Shown here: positions 5,827-46,167 of the stretch, in pieces | Layout: each line of letters begins with the position of its first letter | How positions within the stretch are numbered: the first letter of the stretch is position 1 | Origin: a virus | Direction: 5' to 3' (one strand) | Length of the DNA: 47,320 nt | IMG/VR virus record: IMGVR_UViG_3300043496_000174 | Coordinates: 1-47,320 of that record | Notes under the pieces: model-generated | Seen by the model: the letters and a program-made list of their open reading frames with translations, nothing else | Told to the model about the DNA's origin: nothing | Databases searched by the model: none | Translations under genes and position numbers: made by a program

Positions 5827-7901
5827 CGTACCGGTACCGGCGGCTCGAACCTGCGGTTGGCGGCGCCGACGCCACCGGGACCGAAGCGCAGGAGGTCGCC
5901 ATAGACGTTGCGCGCTAGCTCGGCGGCCGGGTCGCCCATCAGGCCGCGGCCCGCCATGCCCAGCAGTCTTGTCGCCAGCGGCAGCACGCCCGCGGTCGCG
6001 CCGCCGGTGACGGCGCCGGCCATCATATTGCCGAGCGGCGCGCCGGATCCGGACGGCCTCGCCGGGCTGCCGAGCGGTAGCGGATTCTTTGACAGCAAGG
6101 CCGCGTCGTCGAGATTGGCGCGCAGCTGCGTGCCGATCGGCGCGCGCAGGCGCTTGGCCTGTTCCGGCAGGCCAGCCCACCAGGCGCGGATGTCCGGCGA
6201 GATGGTGTCCTGCGTCGGCCCGCGCGTGCGCAGGTCGTATTGGCGGCCGAGCATCCTCTGGAATTCCGCCGGGTTGGCATCCTGCAGCATCTGCAGGCGC
6301 GCCGGCGCCTGGTCGCCGGCGGCGGTGAAGAAGTAGTCATAGGCGCCCTTCGGCCCCAAATCGCCCTGCCTCACCCTCGGGTCGAGCGTCTCCTCGATGT
6401 TGTAAGTCTCGGCCGTCTGCGCCTGGTGGCGCCGCCATTCGGCCTCGGTCATGCCGCCGCGCTGTGCCGCGTCGCGTCGCGTCTGCTCGATCGAGTCGCG
6501 CACCGGCGCGGTGTCGCGGCTCTCCAGCCGGCCGCCATGCTGGACCACCTGCTTCAACTCGGAATTGATCCTGCGTGCCATCGTCTCGTTGATGCCGAGG
6601 TTCGATTCGATCTCGGCATCGATCGAGTCGAGGCGTTGCTGCGCCTCGGCCGCCGACGCCGACGGCGCCCGGTCGGCTTCGCGCTGCGCCAGTTCGCGCG
6701 CCACCTGCAGGCGCTGGTGCCGGGCGGCATCGCGCGGCGTCAGATTGGCGCGCATGCGGTCCAGCTCGCCCTGCCACTGCGCGCGCTCCTCGACTGTGAA
6801 GCGCGGGTCGGTGGCGTGCTCCTGCAGCGTCTCGATGATGGCGGTCGGGTCGTGGATGGCGTCGGGTCCGCCGGCGCGGGTTTCCATCTCGGTCTGCAGA
6901 ATCTCGCGCTGCTGGATGGCGTTGTCGGTCGCCTGGCTGGCGAGGCCCTGCGCGGTCTGGCCGATCTCGCCGACGGTGGCGTTGGACAGCGGCTGGCTGG
7001 TGGCGTCGGGCGCCACGCCGGCAATGCCCTTGGCGTTGCGATCGAGCAGCCGCTTCATGGCCTCGGCCTGCGCCTGGATGACGCGCGGCGGCACGTAGGT
7101 TCCCTGGGCGCTTTCGTTGCCGAGCAGTGGCAGGCTGATCGGCACGCGCTGCCGGGTCGCCGCCGCCGATCGCGCCGCGGAGCCGCTGCGCTGGTCGTGG
7201 TCGCCATAGTTGCTGCGCACGCGGGCGCCGCGGCCGCCCTTGACCATGCCGGGGCCGAAGCCGCCGGCGAAGCCCAGTGTCTTTTCCCATCGGCGCGGCT
7301 GGTCCTCGTCCGGAAACACCTTGTCGACCTGCTCGCCGATCTTTTCGCCGATCAGCGAGGCGGTGGCGCTGGCGGCACCGCCGATGCCACCGATGATGGC
7401 GCCGGCACCCATGCCGGGCAAGCCGCCGGGCGTGCCTGCGATGGTGCCGCCGACGACGCCGGGCGTGATGGCGCCGCCATACAGCTCGCCGGTTTCGCGC
7501 CAGCCCTCCCAGCCAGGCTCGACCGGAACGGCATCCTCTATCTGCTGCGGGTAGCCGAACCACGGGTCCATCGTGTAGGGGTCGCCGCCCTGGCTATCGA
7601 ACTGGTCCTTGAGGTCGGTCGCGGTGTTGACCGTGCCGGGAATGATATCTGCGCTGCCGGCGCCACCCTGGACGAAGCCGGTGCCGAGTTCTTTAAGTCC
7701 GGTGCCGCCGAAATCGTAGAACTTTTCGTACCAGGGACGGTTGGCGGCGGCCACGCGGGCGTCGGCCTCCTGGCGCAGGCGTTCCTCCGCCGTCATGGTT
7801 GTCTGCGGCGCTTCGCTGTCTGCGGAGGCCGCTGGCGCGGTTTCGGTTGCGTCGGCATCTCTCTGCTCGGCCTCAAGCCGGAGCTGCTGCTCGCGCGTCA
7901 T
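5823..7901 (-). CDS. Internal virion protein, Gly-rich hydrophobic segments
   Basis: This encodes 692 aa. A charged helical N-terminus (QQLRLEAEQRDADATE) is followed by a Gly-rich hydrophobic stretch at about residues 135-190 (GGAITPGVVGGTIAGTPGG and on), which looks membrane-compatible. A long charged helical or coiled-coil body follows, then a second Gly/Ala-rich hydrophobic segment near residues 625-660. This alternation is typical of ejection proteins that form a channel across the cell envelope. The start overlaps the upstream gene by ATGA. No catalytic motif is visible, and the role is inferred from composition and neighbours. Confidence 0.75.
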   Translation of the reverse strand: MTREQQLRLEAEQRDADATETAPAASADSEAPQTTMTAEERLRQEADARVAAANRPWYEKFYDFGGTGLKELGTGFVQGGAGSADIIPGTVNTATDLKDQFDSQGGDPYTMDPWFGYPQQIEDAVPVEPGWEGWRETGELYGGAITPGVVGGTIAGTPGGLPGMGAGAIIGGIGGAASATASLIGEKIGEQVDKVFPDEDQPRRWEKTLGFAGGFGPGMVKGGRGARVRSNYGDHDQRSGSAARSAAATRQRVPISLPLLGNESAQGTYVPPRVIQAQAEAMKRLLDRNAKGIAGVAPDATSQPLSNATVGEIGQTAQGLASQATDNAIQQREILQTEMETRAGGPDAIHDPTAIIETLQEHATDPRFTVEERAQWQGELDRMRANLTPRDAARHQRLQVARELAQREADRAPSASAAEAQQRLDSIDAEIESNLGINETMARRINSELKQVVQHGGRLESRDTAPVRDSIEQTRRDAAQRGGMTEAEWRRHQAQTAETYNIEETLDPRVRQGDLGPKGAYDYFFTAAGDQAPARLQMLQDANPAEFQRMLGRQYDLRTRGPTQDTISPDIRAWWAGLPEQAKRLRAPIGTQLRANLDDAALLSKNPLPLGSPARPSGSGAPLGNMMAGAVTGGATAGVLPLATRLLGMAGRGLMGDPAAELARNVYGDLLRFGPGGVGAANRRFEPPVPVR

Positions 7902-31226: not shown

Positions 31227-31300
31227 AGGTTCACCCTCCAATGCCGTGCGATACCACCCTTCAGGCCGTGCCAGCTACCCTCTGGGCCGAGGCCTGTTTC

Positions 31301-31467
31301 GTGACGGTAGTGACGGTAGTGACGGTACTTTACGTCTTTAGCGCTTCTAGAGAAATATTACCTGTAATATTAAAAGTTGTGAAGTACCGTCACTACCGTC
31401 ACTTCCCAGCATTACCAAGGCTTTGAAGCCTCCGGCAGTACCGTCATCTACCGTCACGTACCGTCAC
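31301..31467. repeat. Iteron cluster with AT-rich core, candidate replication origin
   Basis: Eight copies of the 9-mer GTGACGGTA occur: three perfect tandem copies at 31301-31327 on the plus strand, two inverted perfect copies at 31385-31402, and three more inverted at 31439-31447 (one mismatch), 31449-31457 and 31459-31467. Between the arms is an AT-rich core (31328-31384) with its own palindrome AATATTA-CCTG-TAATATT (31354-31371). The arms make a perfect 21-bp inverted repeat (31310-31330 with 31382-31402). The last copy overlaps the stop of the helicase gene. Iterons, an AT-rich core and an adjacent initiator helicase are the usual parts of an origin. Confidence 0.75.
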
Positions 31468-32876
31468 TCGGAAAACTCGTTTTTAAGCCTTATCCCACTG
31501 TAATGCTTGCCTTTATTGTCCGCAAACCATTTCACGCCCGGCGCGGCGCGAAGCAACCTGGTCTTGAATCCGGCGGGCGTCGCCGGCCGGCCGACCTCGC
31601 TCGCATACGATTTCCACGCCATCAAAAGCGCGCCCGCATCGACGACCCACGGGGCCTGTTTTTGCTCCCCGGCCGGCCGGTTATCCACCTCGCAGCAATC
31701 ATCGACAAACTGCTTCATCACGTCCTGCTCTTCGAAGTACTCGGCCGTCGCGGCGGCGACCGCCGGCGGTATCACCAGCCCGCCCGCCCCATTGAGGCAT
31801 TCCACGGCGCCGTCGATGATCCAGCGCATGATCGCCGGCCCCTCGGCATTGACCAGCACGTCGTGATAGCGCGGCACCCGCTCGCTCTCGGGGATCATAT
31901 AATCCAGATGCACCATCAGGAACCGGCGCACGATGCCCGGATCCACATCGCGCAGGTTCGGCATGTAATTACCGGTGATGGTCAGCGAGCATTGCACCCG
32001 TGACGTCGCGAAATTCTGGTGCATGAAGCGCGCCGATATCTCATCCTCGCCGGTCACCATCTTCAGCTTCGCCATGTCGAAAGTCGTATTATCTGGCGCT
32101 TCCACGGCGAACGCCATCGGCGCTGATATCGCCCGCGCCAGGCCGGCTGGGTGCTGCGCCGAACGCTGCTGCAGGAACGTGTCGATATCCACCCGGACAC
32201 AATAGTCCCCCACCAGCCGGGCGATCGTATCGACAAGCGTGTTCTTGCCGTTGGCCCCAAGCCCGTAGATGAACACCAGCCGCTGGTACACCACCTCGGC
32301 GACCAGGCTGATGCCGAACCACAATTGCAGGAATTTCTGCAGCTTCTTGTCGCCGCGCGTGATCTTGTCCAGGAATTCCAGCCACAGCTTCGCCTTCGTA
32401 CCCTTGGGATCGATCGGCCACCGCGTCACACGCGTGATCATATCCGTTGCCACCCCGGCCTTGAGCTTGCCGGTGCGCAGGTCGACAACACCATTCGGCG
32501 CCGCCACCAGGTATGGGTCCCTGTTCCAATGGTCGCGCGTCACCGCCAGGCGCGCATCGGTGCGCATGATCTTCTCGATGCTCGCCATCATCTTGGCGCT
32601 CAGCATCTGCCGCTTCTGCCCGATCTTCATCGTATCCCGGCGCCGCTCGACGATCTTGCCGAGAAACACCTTGACCATCGTATCGACGGCGACCTGGGCC
32701 AGTTTGCCGCCGGCCCAGATATTGCCGGTCCAATTGAACCAGCCCTTGTGGTCGAGGTCATATCGGAGATTGTGCACCGCGATTCCGGCGAGCGCGAAGG
32801 CGATGGTCTGTTCGAAAGTGTCGGACTGACCGAGTTGATTCAGCACCTGGTCGAGGATCTTGTCGGCTGCGGTCAT
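31464..32876 (-). CDS. SF3 / D5-type replicative helicase (primase-helicase C-terminal part)
   Basis: This encodes 470 aa. The N-terminal 190 residues resemble the D5_N region of phage and plasmid primase-helicases (GWFNWTGNIWAGGK, PYLVAAPNGVVDLRTGKL). The helicase core has Walker A GANGKNT at residues 207-213, an SF3 sensor (SLTITGNYMP) and the arginine-finger segment VRRF. It unwinds DNA as a hexamer. The primase domain normally fused to its N-terminus is in the preceding gene, so this is a split primase-helicase. The origin-like iterons lie at its 3' end. It overlaps the primase gene by 4 bp (ATGA). Confidence 0.9.
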   Translation of the reverse strand: MTAADKILDQVLNQLGQSDTFEQTIAFALAGIAVHNLRYDLDHKGWFNWTGNIWAGGKLAQVAVDTMVKVFLGKIVERRRDTMKIGQKRQMLSAKMMASIEKIMRTDARLAVTRDHWNRDPYLVAAPNGVVDLRTGKLKAGVATDMITRVTRWPIDPKGTKAKLWLEFLDKITRGDKKLQKFLQLWFGISLVAEVVYQRLVFIYGLGANGKNTLVDTIARLVGDYCVRVDIDTFLQQRSAQHPAGLARAISAPMAFAVEAPDNTTFDMAKLKMVTGEDEISARFMHQNFATSRVQCSLTITGNYMPNLRDVDPGIVRRFLMVHLDYMIPESERVPRYHDVLVNAEGPAIMRWIIDGAVECLNGAGGLVIPPAVAAATAEYFEEQDVMKQFVDDCCEVDNRPAGEQKQAPWVVDAGALLMAWKSYASEVGRPATPAGFKTRLLRAAPGVKWFADNKGKHYSGIRLKNEFSE

Positions 32877-36512: not shown

Positions 36513-38750
36513 ATGAACGTGTACTTTGATTTCGAGTCGAAATCCGGCGCCGAGGCGCCGGACCTCCGCAAGTGCGGAGCCTATCGCTATGCCAATCACG
36601 CCACGGCGCTGATCCTGTCCTACGCGATCGACGACGGGCCGGTGCGGGTTGTCCACAACAATGGCGCGCCTCTGTGCTGGGCCGACCTCCCCGAATTGCA
36701 CGACATTTTCGACGCGGCGACGTTCATTGCCTGGAATGCCGGCTTCGACCGCGCCATCTGGAACTACGCGCTGCTGGATTCGCCCTTCCTCGCCCCAGAG
36801 AAGGCCCGTGACGCGATGGCGGCCGCCCTGGCGAACAATCTACCGCCCGACCTCGAACGCGCTTCCACGACGCTTACAGGCAGCGGCAAGATGAAGGACG
36901 GCAAGCGGCTGATCGGCCGATTCTGCGCGCACGACTCGGCGCCGATCGAAACTGACGAAGACCGCGAGGATTGGATCAAGTTCGTCACCTACGCCGCAAT
37001 CGACACGAAGCGGCTGCGCGACAATTGGAAGCGCCTGCGGCCGCTGCCGGATGAGGAGTGGGCCGTCTACGTCGCCAACGAAGCTGTGAATGACCTGGGG
37101 ATACCGATCGACCTGGTCTATGTCGAGAAGGCCGCGGCGCTCGCCGCCCAGGACCTCGGCCGCACCAATGCCCGGCTCGCGGAGATCACCGGCGGGGATG
37201 TCATCTCGGTCTACGAGCATGCGCGCATCGCCAGCTGGGTCTACAACCGCCTCGACGACCCCGAAGCCCGCGAGATCCTGGTGACCTACACCGCCGATGC
37301 GGAAACCGAGGAATTCGAAGGCGAGGCGGAAGAGGCCCCCAAACAGACGACCGTGCTGTCGTGCCGGCGCACCAATGTCGTCCGGCTGCTGGACTATCTG
37401 CAAAGCAAGGGCGGCGCCGACCCGGCCTTGATCGAAGTGCTGCAGCTGCGCGAATTCGGTGCCGGTTCCGCCCCGAAAAAGTTCAAGGCGATCCTCGACC
37501 AGCACATTGGCGGCCGGCTTTACGGTCAGTTTCTGTTCAACGGCGCGCATTCCGGAAGATTCAGCGGCAAAGGCGTCCAGCCGCAGAATCTCACACGCTC
37601 GATCCTCGGCGAAAGCAAGGACGACGATTACGGAAAGTTCGAGGCGCCGACCGTGGACCTGATTGCTGACGGCTGCGACCTGGAAACGCTCGCCGCGCAC
37701 GGGCTGGGTGAGCCGCCCGCGAAGAAGCTGGCCCTGGTGGTTCGGCCCGCGGTGATGGCGCCGATCGGCCGGACGCTGGTCAAGGCGGACTATTCGCAGA
37801 TCGAGGCGCGGGTGTTGCCGTTCCTCACCGGCGGCACGATCGACAGCATGCCGCTATTGGCGGCATTCCAGCGATCGGACACCGACCCGACCGCCCCCGA
37901 CCTCTACCGTGTCACTGCCGCAGCCATGCTGCACAAGCGGGCGGAAGACATCGGCACGGCCGAGCGCCAACGAGGGAAAGTCGCGATCCTGGCGTGCGGG
38001 TTCCAGGGCGGAAAGAACGCGCTGATGTCGATGGCGACCAATTACGGCATGTATCTGTCGCCGGCCGAGGCGCAAATCATCGTCGACCAGTGGCGCGCGG
38101 CGAACCTTTGGGCCGATAAACTGTGGGGCAAGCACAGCAAGGACGTATCCTACGGCCTCTATGGCGCCGCCTGCCGCGCCGTGCAGGCGCCAGGCTCGGG
38201 ACAACGGGCCGGCAGGATCCTGTTCACTTTCGCCAAGAACTATCTCGGCGGCTCGCTGCTGATGATGCTGCCGAGCGGCCGTATCATGACCTACCCCTGG
38301 TGCAAGTTCCGTGATTACGAGATCAAGGACAAGGTCACCAAAGCCGTGGTCGATGTCCGCCACGGCCTGACCTTCCGGCGCACGTCCGGCATTGTCGCGC
38401 TCTATGGCGGCCGCTTCGCCGAGAACGCCACCCAGGCGGCTGCCGCCGACCTGCTGCGCGATTCCATCGTCGAGGCGCGGAGCCAAGGCCTGCCATTGGT
38501 CATGCACGCCCATGATGAGCTTGTTATTGAGCCGGAAGAATCGGAGGCGGAGGAAATGACCGCGCGGCTCGAATCCATCATGAAGCGCGAACGTCCGTGG
38601 ACGGCTGGCCTGCCGCTCGCCGTCGACCTCACCGAGCGGTTCTACTATTCCGCCTGCAAAGTCCCGAAGAAGCGATTGGCGTTGCCATCCCAGGCTGTTA
38701 GCTTTGCTAAACAGCCTGGAGAAAACCATGTCGTCGCGACGCAAGCTTAA
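36513..38750 (+). CDS. DNA polymerase, family A with 3'-5' exonuclease
   Basis: This encodes 745 aa from the ATG at 36513; upstream open codons belong to another frame. The exonuclease domain has MNVYFDFES (Asp6, Glu8), AWNAGFDRAIWN and YAAIDTKRL. The polymerase domain shows motif A LVKADYSQIEARVLPF, motif B RQRGKVAILACGFQGGKNAL, and motif C MHAHDELVIE with catalytic Asp. Motif B has GFQGG in place of the usual F/Y-G, a variant seen in phage-type polymerases. It replicates the phage genome. The next gene starts inside its 3' end. Confidence 0.95.
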   Translation: MNVYFDFESKSGAEAPDLRKCGAYRYANHATALILSYAIDDGPVRVVHNNGAPLCWADLPELHDIFDAATFIAWNAGFDRAIWNYALLDSPFLAPEKARDAMAAALANNLPPDLERASTTLTGSGKMKDGKRLIGRFCAHDSAPIETDEDREDWIKFVTYAAIDTKRLRDNWKRLRPLPDEEWAVYVANEAVNDLGIPIDLVYVEKAAALAAQDLGRTNARLAEITGGDVISVYEHARIASWVYNRLDDPEAREILVTYTADAETEEFEGEAEEAPKQTTVLSCRRTNVVRLLDYLQSKGGADPALIEVLQLREFGAGSAPKKFKAILDQHIGGRLYGQFLFNGAHSGRFSGKGVQPQNLTRSILGESKDDDYGKFEAPTVDLIADGCDLETLAAHGLGEPPAKKLALVVRPAVMAPIGRTLVKADYSQIEARVLPFLTGGTIDSMPLLAAFQRSDTDPTAPDLYRVTAAAMLHKRAEDIGTAERQRGKVAILACGFQGGKNALMSMATNYGMYLSPAEAQIIVDQWRAANLWADKLWGKHSKDVSYGLYGAACRAVQAPGSGQRAGRILFTFAKNYLGGSLLMMLPSGRIMTYPWCKFRDYEIKDKVTKAVVDVRHGLTFRRTSGIVALYGGRFAENATQAAAADLLRDSIVEARSQGLPLVMHAHDELVIEPEESEAEEMTARLESIMKRERPWTAGLPLAVDLTERFYYSACKVPKKRLALPSQAVSFAKQPGENHVVATQA

Positions 38751-39009
38751 GCCTTTCACTGCAACGCATCTTAACGGCGCCGGCTACGCCATGATCATGC
38801 GCGAACTCGGCTACGACCACGCCCGCATTGCCGCCGCCCTGGGGGTCACCCGGTGGACGTCGATCGCCTGGAAGATGGGCCGCCGCAACATCTCGCCGCT
38901 GGCCGAGAAAGCCATCCACGGCCTGCTCCTGGCCCGCTATGCCGGCGACCTGGCGCAGGCCGAGGTCGAGCGCGTAATAAATCGCGCCAAACAGCGCGGC
39001 AGGGCTTGA
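38728..39009 (+). CDS. Helix-turn-helix DNA-binding protein, Cro-like
   Basis: This encodes 93 aa from an ATG with CTGGAG upstream, overlapping the polymerase end. Residues 20-55 (YAMIMRELGYDHARIAAALG, then VTRWTSIAWKMGRRNISPLAEK) form a clear helix-turn-helix of the Cro/CI type. A basic tail (VINRAKQRGRA) follows. The gene lies directly upstream of a promoter with a 7-bp inverted repeat (39012-39029), so it is a strong candidate for the protein that binds that site and its second copy at 39973-39990. Confidence 0.75.
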   Translation: MSSRRKLKPFTATHLNGAGYAMIMRELGYDHARIAAALGVTRWTSIAWKMGRRNISPLAEKAIHGLLLARYAGDLAQAEVERVINRAKQRGRA

Positions 39010-39034
39010 TTAGTGGACATAGGTCCACTACCTA
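39006..39034 (+). promoter_or_regulatory. Promoter P1 with operator-like inverted repeat
   Basis: TTGATT (39006-39011), a 17-bp spacer and TACCTA (39029-39034) form a sigma70-type promoter. The spacer holds a perfect inverted repeat AGTGGAC-ATAG-GTCCACT (39012-39029). The predicted +1 at about 39041 is exactly the first base of the closing stem of the structured RNA. Confidence 0.75.
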
Positions 39035-39040
39035 GTTTGT

Positions 39041-39294
39041 TGTGCAAGGGAGAGTACAGAGCCGAAATCAAGGGAAAGCAGGCGCGCCCCCGAGGCGGAC
39101 GAAAGAAAGTAGCGAGCGATTCCCGAAGGCTTCACGCCGTTAGTAGGGACGGGTTACCCGGTAGCGAAACGAGTAGTCGGGATCACGGTGGAATTAAAAG
39201 GCGGGCGAGTAAAGCCACCCTACCGACACTTTAGCTGGGTGGTATCGCCGACGAACTGCTGAACGAATTGGCTACGCAGCCACTCTCTTGCACA
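39041..39294 (+). ncRNA. Structured RNA of about 254 nt, unknown class
   Basis: A 12-bp closing stem pairs 39041-39052 (TGTGCAAGGGAG) with 39283-39294 (CTCTCTTGCACA, one G-U pair). Inside, clear hairpins are CGCC-CCCGA-GGCG (39085-39097), CGGG-TTA-CCCG near 39150-39160, CCACCC/GGGTGG (39226-39242) and TGGCT/AGCCA (39269-39282). There is no credible coding frame: the open frames lack starts or show codon use unlike the neighbours. It has its own promoter, P1. I match it to no known RNA class. It could be a free RNA or a long 5' leader for the gene at 39323. Confidence 0.65.
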
Positions 39295-39322
39295 CCGAAT
39301 TTAAGGGAACAGGATCCTCAAA

Positions 39323-39523
39323 ATGACCTACGACGACAACGACGCCGCCATCGACGCCTGGAACAACGGCGCCATCGACGGCATCCGCGGCAACGCTCAA
39401 GCCAGCGACGATCGTGATTACCTGCACGGCTACATTCACGGCGCCGAACAGCGCAAGGTCCGCCCGGTCATGCCGGTGCGGCCCGAGGGCTACTACCACA
39501 GCGCCCCCGAGGTGCTAGGATGA
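39323..39523 (+). CDS. Small protein, RMF-like spacing of glycines
   Basis: This encodes 66 aa with AGGA about nine bases upstream. The pattern AAIDAWNNGAIDGIRGNAQ followed by YLHGYIHGAEQRK is that of small two-helix proteins such as ribosome modulation factor, with A-x-x-x-G-x-x-D-G repeats. The similarity is short and I do not claim the function. It lies downstream of the structured RNA and is probably on the same transcript from P1. Confidence 0.6.
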   Translation: MTYDDNDAAIDAWNNGAIDGIRGNAQASDDRDYLHGYIHGAEQRKVRPVMPVRPEGYYHSAPEVLG

Positions 39524-39534
39524 CCACATCCGTA

Positions 39535-39602
39535 GGGGATAGGGGATGCTAAAGCTCACCCAGCTACCCTCGTCCCCGACAAGCGCAGCCGGACAGACTG
39601 CG
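39535..39602 (+). promoter_or_regulatory. Two structured hairpins in an intergenic leader
   Basis: The first hairpin (39535-39577) pairs GGGGATAGGG with CCCT-C-GTCCCC, one bulged base, and an inner GCT/AGC. The second (39584-39602) pairs CGCAG with CTGCG and is followed by TTTCCCC, resembling a weak terminator. Both lie within the 114-bp gap before the gene at 39638, which suggests attenuation. Confidence 0.5.
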
Positions 39603-39637
39603 TTTCCCCTGCGGACAAAGCCCACGGAGTGGCTAGC

Positions 39638-39871
39638 ATGGTAAAGCTCGACCCACCCGATACCATGCCCGCCGCCGAACACGCCGCGCTCGACGTCGCG
39701 CTGCAGGCAGTCAAGGCGATCGCCGACCTGTACGGAATCTGCCCGGTCTGCCTGACCTACGCCGTCGCCGACACCGTCGAGAAGGCGGTCGCCGAGGGCG
39801 TCATCCACCATGATGGCGAAGACGACGACTCGGTCGCCCCCACTCACGACGCGCCGCGGGCCAGGCAGTGA
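39638..39871 (+). CDS. Small hypothetical protein with CPVC motif
   Basis: This encodes 77 aa from the ATG at 39638 with GGAG eight bases upstream; a GTG at 39629 lies too close to that site. A helical body (AALDVALQAVKAIADLYGIC) carries a CPVC pair that might bind metal or be redox-active, followed by an acidic tail. No family is recognised. It overlaps the next tiny membrane gene by GTGA. Confidence 0.6.
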   Translation: MVKLDPPDTMPAAEHAALDVALQAVKAIADLYGICPVCLTYAVADTVEKAVAEGVIHHDGEDDDSVAPTHDAPRARQ

Positions 39872-39963
39872 CCCAGATGACCCCCAAGACCCTCGCCATC
39901 GCCCTGGCCCTCGCCCTGCTGCTTTGGTTCGGCATCGGCGCGGTTCTCATCTTCTACATCTAA
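39868..39963 (+). CDS. 31-aa single-span membrane peptide
   Basis: A GTG start overlaps the previous stop (an ATG at 39877 would give 28 aa). After a short basic start (MTQMTPK) comes one hydrophobic helix (TLAIALALALLLWFGIGAVL) up to the stop. Such small membrane peptides in early phage operons can modulate host membrane proteins. Promoter P2 begins 3 bp after its stop codon. Confidence 0.5.
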   Translation: MTQMTPKTLAIALALALLLWFGIGAVLIFYI

Positions 39964-39966
39964 GAT

Positions 39967-39995
39967 TTGACTAGCGCACATAGGTCCACTATATA
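39967..39995 (+). promoter_or_regulatory. Promoter P2, second copy of the operator-promoter
   Basis: TTGACT (39967-39972), a 17-bp spacer and TATATA (39990-39995) make a near-consensus promoter. The spacer repeats that of P1 (AGCGCAC-ATAG-GTCCACT at 39973-39990), with the right half identical and the left half degenerate. The predicted +1 is about 40002, the first base of a 9-bp stem. Confidence 0.75.
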
Positions 39996-40001
39996 GGTCG
40001 G

Positions 40002-40084
40002 ACCGGGGCGGGGCAGCCCAAGGCGCAGCCAGGGGGAGTTCTGGCCGGGCCATTGAAGCCGCGCGCTACGAGCCTCGCCCCGGT
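40002..40084 (+). ncRNA. Structured 5' leader behind promoter P2
   Basis: ACCGGGGCG (40002-40010) pairs perfectly with CGCCCCGGT (40076-40084), closing a domain with an inner GCCAG/CTGGC hairpin. The stem starts at the predicted +1, as in P1. The first gene starts 22 bp further at 40107. It may be an attenuator, a stabilising 5' structure or a protein target; no known riboswitch matches. Confidence 0.5.
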
Positions 40085-40106
40085 GCCGAAACAGGAAACC
40101 TCTGAA

Positions 40107-40328
40107 ATGAAACGCGTACAGATACCCGCCTACACCGACCGCTGGATGATGGGCGACCGCTTCGGCGAGATCGTCAAGATCACCTGGGCGAGCAAGGCAA
40201 AGTCCGCCGGACTTCGTGCCGCGATCCTCTCCGAGGTACGCAGCACCGACGCCGAGATCGCCCACGTCAAGCTCGACAAGAGCGGCAAGACCGTGCGCGT
40301 CGTCCTCGCCGACTGCGAGGCGGCGTGA
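40107..40328 (+). CDS. Small hypothetical protein, first gene after P2
   Basis: This encodes 73 aa from the ATG at 40107 with AGGAAA upstream; an upstream TTG at 40053 would sit inside the structured leader. The sequence KRVQIPAYTDRWMMGDRFGE, then ITWASKAKSAG and VKLDKSGKTVRVVLADCE suggests a compact strand-rich fold. The family is unknown. It begins a series of ten small genes joined by overlaps, ending at the SNF2-like helicase. Confidence 0.7.
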   Translation: MKRVQIPAYTDRWMMGDRFGEIVKITWASKAKSAGLRAAILSEVRSTDAEIAHVKLDKSGKTVRVVLADCEAA

Positions 40329-40516
40329 TGCGCCTCGCACCGATAGCTGACCATGTCGCCAAGCACCTTCCGGATTGCCGAAAGGAAGATGCCTGGGAGG
40401 ACAGGCTAAACGATCATATCGACATCGCCAGCGGTGGCGAACTCGACTGGCATCAAACTGGCCTAGTCATCGACATGGTCATCGCCCGCTGGAACAAAGC
40501 AAAGGCGGTGGCGTGA
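40328..40516 (+). CDS. Small hypothetical protein
   Basis: This encodes 62 aa, joined to its neighbours by TGATG overlaps on both sides. It is helical (DAWEDRLNDHIDIASGGELD, then GLVIDMVIARWNKAKAV), with no known motif. It is supported mainly by the operon-like coupling. Confidence 0.65.
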   Translation: MRLAPIADHVAKHLPDCRKEDAWEDRLNDHIDIASGGELDWHQTGLVIDMVIARWNKAKAVA

Positions 40517-41950: not shown

Positions 41951-42273
41951 GCGACGAACCTGAAAACAAACTGCCGTTCGACATCGACGAAAAGCTGTGG
42001 GCCGCAATGCAGAAGAACGCTGCCGCGCACCAGGTCGAGTACCGCAAGATCAAGAAGTCGGTCAGCGACAGATATGAAAAGTTCGACAAGGCGCGACTCA
42101 AACTGACCGCTGCTTATGAAAAGGCGACGACGCCAAAGGCGCGGCTCAAGGCGCTGGCGAAGATCGTCCGCCAGCACGGCGAGTACACGCATCACGGCCT
42201 GATGGCGAGCTGGCAGACCGAAGCCGTCATCATATTTGCCAACCACATCGACGCCATCGCCGAGGATCTGTGA
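41947..42273 (+). CDS. Hypothetical coiled-coil protein
   Basis: This encodes 108 aa from the ATG at 41947, overlapping the previous gene as ATGA. It is helical and charged (DEKLWAAMQKNAAAHQVEYR, KIKKSVSDRYEKFDKARLK, TTPKARLKALAKIVRQHGE). There is no catalytic motif. It directly precedes the SNF2-type helicase with a TGATG overlap and might be a helper of it. Confidence 0.65.
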   Translation: MSDEPENKLPFDIDEKLWAAMQKNAAAHQVEYRKIKKSVSDRYEKFDKARLKLTAAYEKATTPKARLKALAKIVRQHGEYTHHGLMASWQTEAVIIFANHIDAIAEDL

Positions 42274-44481: not shown

Positions 44482-44825
44482 TGGAAATGAACGAAGACGC
44501 GCGAGACGCCAAACAATCCTCGATGGCGCAGGTCGACGATGCCGCGAACCCGATATGGAAGGAGGCCGCGTACGACGCGGTGGTGAGCGTCGCCAGTGAG
44601 CAGCCGACGCTGAACGCCGACCATGTCCTGGCTAGGATCCCCGATAACATTCGCACCCATGAGTTGCGTGCGCTCGGCCCGATCATGCGGCGCGCCGCCC
44701 GTGACAACATCATCATCAAATCGCTGCGGCCGTGGGTGTTCAGCGCGCGCCGCAGTCGCCACGCGGCGCCGCTACAGGTGTGGGACAGCCTGATCTACAC
44801 GCCGAAGGGGGGAGAGACGCCGTGA
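44481..44825 (+). CDS. Hypothetical protein, winged-helix-like
   Basis: This encodes 114 aa from the ATG at 44481. The segment IWKEAAYDAVVSVASEQPTL, then LARIPDNIRTHELRALGPIM and DNIIIKSLRPWVFSARRSRH resembles a small winged helix of the replication-initiation or DnaC-loader type seen in phages; this is a guess. It ends with GGAGAGACGCCGTGA, the junction form repeated later in the coiled-coil array. Confidence 0.6.
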   Translation: MEMNEDARDAKQSSMAQVDDAANPIWKEAAYDAVVSVASEQPTLNADHVLARIPDNIRTHELRALGPIMRRAARDNIIIKSLRPWVFSARRSRHAAPLQVWDSLIYTPKGGETP

Positions 44826-45181
44826 GTGACGAACTCAAGGCCGAGATCGCGGAACTCAAGCACCGCCTTGATATAGCAGCGGAGGAAAGACACGCGAGGC
44901 TCGGCCAACTGGAACGGCTTCGCGAAGCCAAGGACACATTCTTCCGAAACGCCGAAGCTTGGGAAGCCAAGTACGACGAAGCCAAGGCCGAGCTAGAAGA
45001 GTGGCGGCGCGACTACGACCGAGGCACGCGGATGAGCGATTTGAGTGCCGAAGTTCGCAGCGAGATCAACCACTGGCGGGAGCGCGCCGAGATTGCAGAG
45101 GCCGAAATAGCGCGGCTGCACCAAGCCTATCGGGATGAGGCGCAGTTGCGTGTCGCCCTCAAGCTCGACACAGGAGAGTGA
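44822..45181 (+). CDS. Coiled-coil array protein 1
   Basis: This encodes 119 aa from a GTG that overlaps the preceding stop. Almost the whole protein is a charged coiled coil (LKAEIAELKHRLDIAAEERH, then AEIARLHQAYRDEAQ), ending in LKLDTGE. It is the first of four tandem genes that share the AEIARL core and the PDTGE-type tail. The 3' end carries the repeat element at 45158-45178, whose CAGGAGAG serves the next start. No enzyme motif is seen. Confidence 0.65.
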   Translation: MSDELKAEIAELKHRLDIAAEERHARLGQLERLREAKDTFFRNAEAWEAKYDEAKAELEEWRRDYDRGTRMSDLSAEVRSEINHWRERAEIAEAEIARLHQAYRDEAQLRVALKLDTGE

Positions 45182-45182
45182 C

Positions 45183-45404
45183 ATGACAGATGTGTCGATG
45201 CTTGTCGCGGAGTGGGAGGCCGAGATCGCTGGGCTGCGTGCATCATGGGAACAGGCTGTAGCCGAGCGCGACGCAGCCAAGGCCGAAATCACGCGGCTGC
45301 GGAAGGCGCTTAAGGAATACGTCAGGGTAACCACGCCTCTGCTAGGCGACACCAAAGCCTTGGCCGCTGCTGTCAACGCCCTCAAGCCAGACACGGGAGA
45401 GTGA
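45183..45404 (+). CDS. Coiled-coil array protein 2
   Basis: This encodes 73 aa. The start MTDVSMLVAEWEAEIAGLRA is followed by a heptad region (AVAERDAAKAEITRLRKALK) and ends LKPDTGE. The ATG is two bases behind the previous stop, and CAGGAGAG of the repeat element lies before it. It is a likely duplicate of its neighbours, shortened in the middle. Confidence 0.65.
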   Translation: MTDVSMLVAEWEAEIAGLRASWEQAVAERDAAKAEITRLRKALKEYVRVTTPLLGDTKALAAAVNALKPDTGE

Positions 45405-45406
45405 CC

Positions 45407-45796
45407 ATGATGGACACTGGCGAAGATGCCTATATCGACAGTCTCTTGGGCGAGATTGGTAGTGACGAAATAACCCCTAACGATTTGCGAAAAGCCTTCC
45501 TTGCTGGGGCTAGCCAAGCCAACGCCGAAATAGCGCGGCTGACCCATGAGCGCGACGTATGGCAGGGCAAGGCAAAATACTACGGCAGCGAAGTGGGCAA
45601 AGCCGAGGCCGAGCTAACCCGCCTTGCAGCGGAGAACCAGAAATTTAAGGCGCTTATCGCCTCCGAAACAGCGTGGCTGCGTTCGCTACAGCCCGACACA
45701 GGAGAGCAGCCGTCCCCGCTGCAAGCGATTGCCGATATCCTCAAGCCGTTCACGTTCAAAGGCGTCGTCAAGCCCGACACAGGAGAGACGCCGTGA
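45407..45796 (+). CDS. Coiled-coil array protein 3 (double)
   Basis: This encodes 129 aa from the ATG at 45407; a GTG at 45401 is possible. The N-terminus is acidic (MDTGEDAYIDSLLGEIGSDE), then come two AEIARL-type units (ASQANAEIARLTHERDVWQG and EAELTRLAAENQKF). It carries both an internal PDTGE (residue about 100) and a terminal VVKPDTGETP, so it looks like two array units fused after loss of a stop. Confidence 0.65.
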   Translation: MMDTGEDAYIDSLLGEIGSDEITPNDLRKAFLAGASQANAEIARLTHERDVWQGKAKYYGSEVGKAEAELTRLAAENQKFKALIASETAWLRSLQPDTGEQPSPLQAIADILKPFTFKGVVKPDTGETP

Positions 45797-46167
45797 CCCG
45801 CGATTTTGTCCGCGAACTCTCCGACGCCAAGGCCGAGAAGGAAGGCTGGTACGACATGTACATGGCGGCCAAGAATGAAACTGGTCAAGCCAAGGCCGAG
45901 ATCGCGCGGCTGACGGCAGAGCGGGACGAGGTTCGCACTATTCTCGCAGGCACTGACATCAACAGCCTGCCATATGATTATCCAACGTCGCGCATGGCTC
46001 AAAGGCGTATGGACGACCGTGAGAAATTCATACGGATGCGGGAGGCGTTGCAACGCATTGCCGATGCCCCCGCTTGGGGTGCGCCACACAGGTGGGAAAC
46101 AACGCCCTCCGAGGTGCGACAACTTGCTAGCGCCGCCCTCAAGCCCGACACAGGAGAGGGCACATGA
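45793..46167 (+). CDS. Coiled-coil array protein 4
   Basis: This encodes 124 aa from a GTG overlapping the preceding stop. It has the shared core (GQAKAEIARLTAERDEVR), then a different middle region (GTDINSLPYDYPTSRMAQRR) and a helix, and ends LKPDTGEGT. The repeat element at 46138-46158 brings the ribosome-binding site for the following gene at 46164. Confidence 0.65.
   Translation: MTRDFVRELSDAKAEKEGWYDMYMAAKNETGQAKAEIARLTAERDEVRTILAGTDINSLPYDYPTSRMAQRRMDDREKFIRMREALQRIADAPAWGAPHRWETTPSEVRQLASAALKPDTGEGT

Follow-up and report, generated by a model that had tools for sequence, protein, structure and literature searches.

A 254-nt stem-closed interval behind a repeated operator-promoter block in a tailed phage: a candidate structured 5' leader

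The interval designated E1, 254 nt of non-coding DNA closed by a 12-bp stem, is best explained as the leader at the 5' end of a phage mRNA under operator control; we give this reading an even chance of being right. It is favoured because no terminator follows the stem, because a small ORF begins 28 nt after it, and because the same promoter-then-stem layout recurs at 39967-40106, ahead of a 73-aa ORF. The original prediction had left three options for this interval, namely a phage regulatory RNA, a host-factor sponge or a long controlled leader, and the last of these fits the evidence best. E1 is an orphan; it is probably a leader of a common type, set in a repeated layout that is unusual, and to give it the status of a new RNA class would go beyond the present sequence evidence.

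The window is the entire viral-contig record IMGVR_UViG_3300043496_000174 (47,320 nt, positions 1-47,320). It encodes a tailed phage with terminase and portal genes, and its further genes include a primase-helicase, a PD-(D/E)XK exonuclease (DUF2800), a family A DNA polymerase and a helicase. The E1 locus lies in a stretch of small ORFs between the polymerase, which ends at 38750, and the helicase, which starts at 42270. No reverse transcriptase or similar RNA-guided partner was found among those window proteins that were scanned. The features of the locus are as follows:

38728-39009, plus strand: small ORF of 93 aa just upstream of E1; codon-position GC 0.64/0.52/0.82, gene-like
39006-39034, plus strand: operator-promoter 1, TTGATT - 17 nt - TACCTA; the palindrome overlaps the spacer and the -10
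39041-39294, plus strand: E1, non-coding interval of 254 nt, closed by a 12-bp stem (39041-39052 with 39283-39294)
39295-39322, plus strand: linker with a putative ribosome-binding site, ACAGGA, ahead of the 66-aa ORF
39323-39523, plus strand: small ORF of 66 aa downstream of E1; codon-position GC 0.69/0.43/0.85, gene-like
39529-39615, plus strand: E2, a predicted three-way junction closed by an 11-bp stem (pair probability 0.95)
39638-39871, plus strand: small ORF of 77 aa downstream of E2; codon-position GC 0.76/0.44/0.86, gene-like
39967-39995, plus strand: operator-promoter 2, TTGACT - 17 nt - TATATA, aligned with copy 1
40002-40084, plus strand: E3, closed by a 13-bp stem (40002-40014 with 40072-40084; pair probability 0.96)
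40107-40328, plus strand: small ORF of 73 aa downstream of E3; phrog_5546, E 3e-7

The 93-aa ORF gave only a sub-threshold Pfam match (Sigma70_r4_2, E 0.089) and no relatives in the phage homologue search, and its product is a possible DNA-binding protein that could be the operator binder. The 66-aa ORF had no match in PHROGs, Pfam or NCBIfam and no phage homologue, and no family was found for the 77-aa ORF. The 73-aa protein carries the motif YTDRWMMGDRFG and is widespread, with 40 homologous loci in viral contigs. Elsewhere in the record, the region 31300-31468, beside the primase-helicase gene, contains iteron-like repeats (GTGACGGTA / TACCGTCAC) in both orientations, together with a 26-bp inverted repeat (31309-31334 with 31378-31403), and is a candidate replication origin. 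The region 44800-46167 holds related small ORFs in tandem, with common repeats such as GCCAAGGCCGAGATCGCG and a recurring junction, CCTCAAGCCCGACACAGGAGAG, that resembles a gene end plus a ribosome-binding site; the arrangement suggests serial gene duplication.

The operator-promoter block in front of E1, TTGAYTAGYGSACATAGGTCCACTA, is found in two copies only in the whole record, the second being that at 39967, with 0.02 matches expected by chance. The first copy contains the perfect palindrome TAGTGGACATAGGTCCACTA at 39011-39030, which is imperfect in copy 2; since it is perfect in copy 1 only, the comparison of the two copies points to an operator acting at the DNA level rather than to an RNA hairpin. 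The dedicated operator-promoter that had been proposed was thus borne out by the palindrome and by the second copy, although its -10, TACCTA, is weak (two of six positions as in TATAAT) and that of copy 2 is better. Because of this weak -10, the start of transcription at 39041 can be placed only from the promoter spacing and the second copy; a consensus promoter scan found no promoter at copy 1. Among viral contigs, the operator pattern gave two chance matches with no common context on inspection, and the longer promoter block gave no match.

The 12-bp stem that encloses E1 was confirmed. It includes one G-U pair, and its predicted mean pair probability is 0.96-0.99 in several sequence contexts. 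This GC-rich record has many stems of at least 12 bp within 350 nt, so that local shuffles are the fair control: when the 331-nt local sequence was dinucleotide-shuffled 1000 times, a stem of the same length, quality and span appeared in only 5 cases, and in a tighter local test the closing stem was matched in 0/300. These and the other shuffle controls were chosen after the sequence had been seen, and the counts are to be read as support and not as strict probabilities. The further hairpins that had been described within the stem fared less well: four terminal hairpins do appear in the minimum energy fold, yet the whole of E1 is of ordinary stability (z -1.3, with 22/200 shuffles as stable), and interior 150-nt windows (z from about -0.3 to +0.8) are no better than shuffles. 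Hence, it is mainly the closing stem, which we regard as supported, that justifies calling E1 a structured RNA; the interior fold is a prediction. Unpaired positions are not enriched in A, as might be expected of a genuine fold (0.45, against 0.48 in shuffles), and this argument for the fold was rejected. The claim that no credible ORF fills the interval held, as codon-position GC across 39010-39322 is flat (0.59/0.52/0.52, against about 0.64/0.47/0.82 in neighbouring genes) and no gene-like reading frame was found there.

Two further elements extend the pattern. E2 folds better than shuffles (z -3.44), and its closing stem, like that of E3, was found in 0/300 local shuffles; the fact that the closing stems of E1, E2 and E3 all exceed their local shuffles supports the leader reading. 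So does the register, as both operator copies are followed by a stem, and those of E1 and E3 start alike, 11 nt downstream of the operator and 7 nt downstream of the -10. The distance to the ATG of the following small ORF is 28 nt for E1 and 22 nt for both E2 and E3, all three ORFs being gene-like in codon-position GC, and the linkers after E1 and E3 are similar (15/500 shuffles as similar). A common origin of the three elements was considered and rejected, no sequence similarity above shuffles being found among them. Finally, E1 positions 39232-39242 and E2 positions 39556-39566 are complementary over 11 bp (9/300 shuffles). This complementarity, which might reflect contact at long range or between loops, we take as a weak lead to a function beyond that of a 5' clamp.

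The original prediction had recognized no known RNA class in the interval, and the searches agree. Rfam 15 at gathering cut-offs gave no match in the whole window, and at permissive thresholds the best local matches were at chance level and on other spans or the other strand; the covariance search that had been proposed was run against Rfam without any family being matched. No tRNA or tmRNA was found by the ARAGORN gene model, and no riboswitch match was found in Rfam. Nor does the interval fit a group I or II intron: it sits between genes, and the intron models of Rfam matched nothing in 38950-39400, even at E up to 10. A blastn search of E1 against phages and plasmids, at E up to 10, returned only short chance matches of about 22-31 nt, and the E1 loop motif was not found in viral contigs.

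The homologue search by which compensatory changes in the stem were to be sought was likewise carried out, and it yielded no homologue to compare. In relatives identified by their DNA polymerase and helicase, nhmmer found none of E1, E2 and E3, and a blastn search of the whole records gave no E1 either. Over 72 sources and 48 whole records, a covariance model built from the single E1 sequence, which can miss distant homologues, matched at chance level only. The absence of E1 homologues holds for the records searched and is not absolute. In the nearest record found (L021/L022) the helicase is 63% identical; in another relative (L007) the helicase directly follows the polymerase, and in nine others ORFs take up most of the space between these two genes. 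The 40 homologous loci of the 73-aa ORF are without the elements, and scans of genome contigs with the polymerase and the 73-aa ORF gave none that was confirmed. A TTGAC-type promoter-like match precedes several homologues of this ORF, which speaks for the leader reading; the leader in these loci is only about 20-48 nt, however, which indicates that such an element is not generally needed. As a separate observation, the polymerase genes of three relatives seem to be interrupted (L012 at 6122-7124, L017 at 2015-2346 and L020 at 6278-7638) by unrelated sequence of 0.3-1.4 kb, possibly introns or inteins.

These observations can be integrated in a model which, starting from stems, spacing, linkers and ORFs seen in the sequence, proposes start sites, processing, message stability and the identity of a regulator. 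A DNA-binding regulator, perhaps the 93-aa product, would control the promoter through the operator that overlaps its spacer and -10. Transcription would start at about 39041, so that the first RNA base would be paired in the 12-bp stem predicted to close the 254-nt leader, with the ribosome-binding site lying in the 28-nt linker and being followed by the 66-aa ORF. In E. coli, RppH and RNase E require 5' ends that are single-stranded, and 5' pairing stabilises mRNA (PMC3997798). A paired 5' end would be a poor substrate for either enzyme, so that the likely effect is a message that lasts longer and whose ribosome-binding site is insulated: the clamp may keep the message stable and the leader structure away from the ribosome-binding site. 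The same plan would recur in the unit from 39967, where E3 is an unrelated insert; E2 would be an internal version between two ORFs.

That E1 is instead a discrete regulatory RNA, acting on host or phage RNA or protein, appears rather unlikely to us; such an RNA would either be released from a longer transcript by cleavage of the long stem, as a site of RNase III type, or end near 39294. The interval is compact, non-coding and purine-rich, and if transcription came from upstream the stem would extend outward with weak, G-U tolerant pairs (39034-39039 with 39296-39301, probability 0.94 if transcribed), as would suit a transcript that reads through and is then processed. With a start at 39041 this pairing would go unused, which counts against the leader. 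However, no terminator is found after 39294, the sole plus-strand match in 38600-40400 being the operator palindrome at 39011-39030, a ribosome-binding site and an ORF (from 39323) immediately follow, and there is no conservation in any related phage searched. A discrete RNA of about 254 nt is thus unsupported, and the dedicated free regulatory RNA and the host-factor sponge that had been envisaged found no positive evidence. Leaders that exert nascent-RNA control on the small ORFs, as antiterminators similar to HK022 put, attenuators or ligand-sensing leaders, are in our judgement unlikely. Two units do have an element at the head of a regulated transcript, much as HK022 putL lies just downstream of PL (PMC9378689), and the E1-E2 complementarity would suit such a role; yet E1, E2 and E3 have no common sequence, whereas put sites resemble each other, no attenuation terminator occurs on the plus strand in 39294-40400, and the riboswitch search of Rfam was negative.

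An equally unlikely explanation is that E1 is unselected, being either spacer DNA or what is left of an insertion, and that its stem arose by chance or as an inverted repeat at the DNA level. The ordinary fold energy, the interior windows at or above shuffle level, the abundance of comparable stems in this GC-rich record and the absence of the region from all relatives are consistent with it, but they are opposed by the rarity of the stem in local shuffles, by three separate elements each exceeding their shuffles and by the same offset of two elements from the same promoter block. More improbable still is that E1, E2 and E3 are unrelated closed modules set in register behind a common regulated promoter or ahead of small phage ORFs, E1 being a new class of phage regulatory RNA that has a fold and a partner of its own.

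Should the leader reading be right, the phage would use at least twice within 1.1 kb a modular plan consisting of a regulated promoter, an RNA closed at its first transcribed base, a ribosome-binding site and a small ORF, and the locus would provide a clean natural test of 5' clamping and of large leaders controlling phage messages. As a free RNA, E1 would instead be a newly found orphan. At present it is a well-defined candidate, and the sequences searched contain no relative of it.

Among known systems, GOLLD, ROOL and OLE share with E1 a multi-branched fold (predicted in this case), a non-coding nature and a location in phage DNA, but E1 is much smaller and has neither an Rfam match nor conservation. 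An sRNA with an intrinsic terminator does not describe it, given that its 3' end has no terminator hairpin plus U run. The put RNA of HK022 is about 70 nt long, with a pair of stem-loops and copies that are similar to one another (PMC9378689). As in that system, structured RNA would stand at the start of regulated phage transcripts in two transcription units; E1 is 254 nt and E3 is 83 nt, however, and their similarity is not above shuffles, so that the elements do not fit the pattern of an HK022-type put RNA. The leaders of the E. coli ompA type have a 5'-terminal stem that protects bacterial mRNAs. E1 would be like them in that its first base is predicted to be paired, the stem would lie at the very 5' end and the putative ribosome-binding site of the unit is located downstream in a less structured linker. 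No unpaired base would precede the first stem if the starts are those predicted from promoter spacing, 39041 and 40002. The difference lies in size, with 254 nt held in one closing stem, far larger than needed. A 5' clamp requires just a short hairpin, so the clamp leaves the size of E1 unexplained and leaves room for a further role, such as put-like antitermination, ligand control or a processed RNA.
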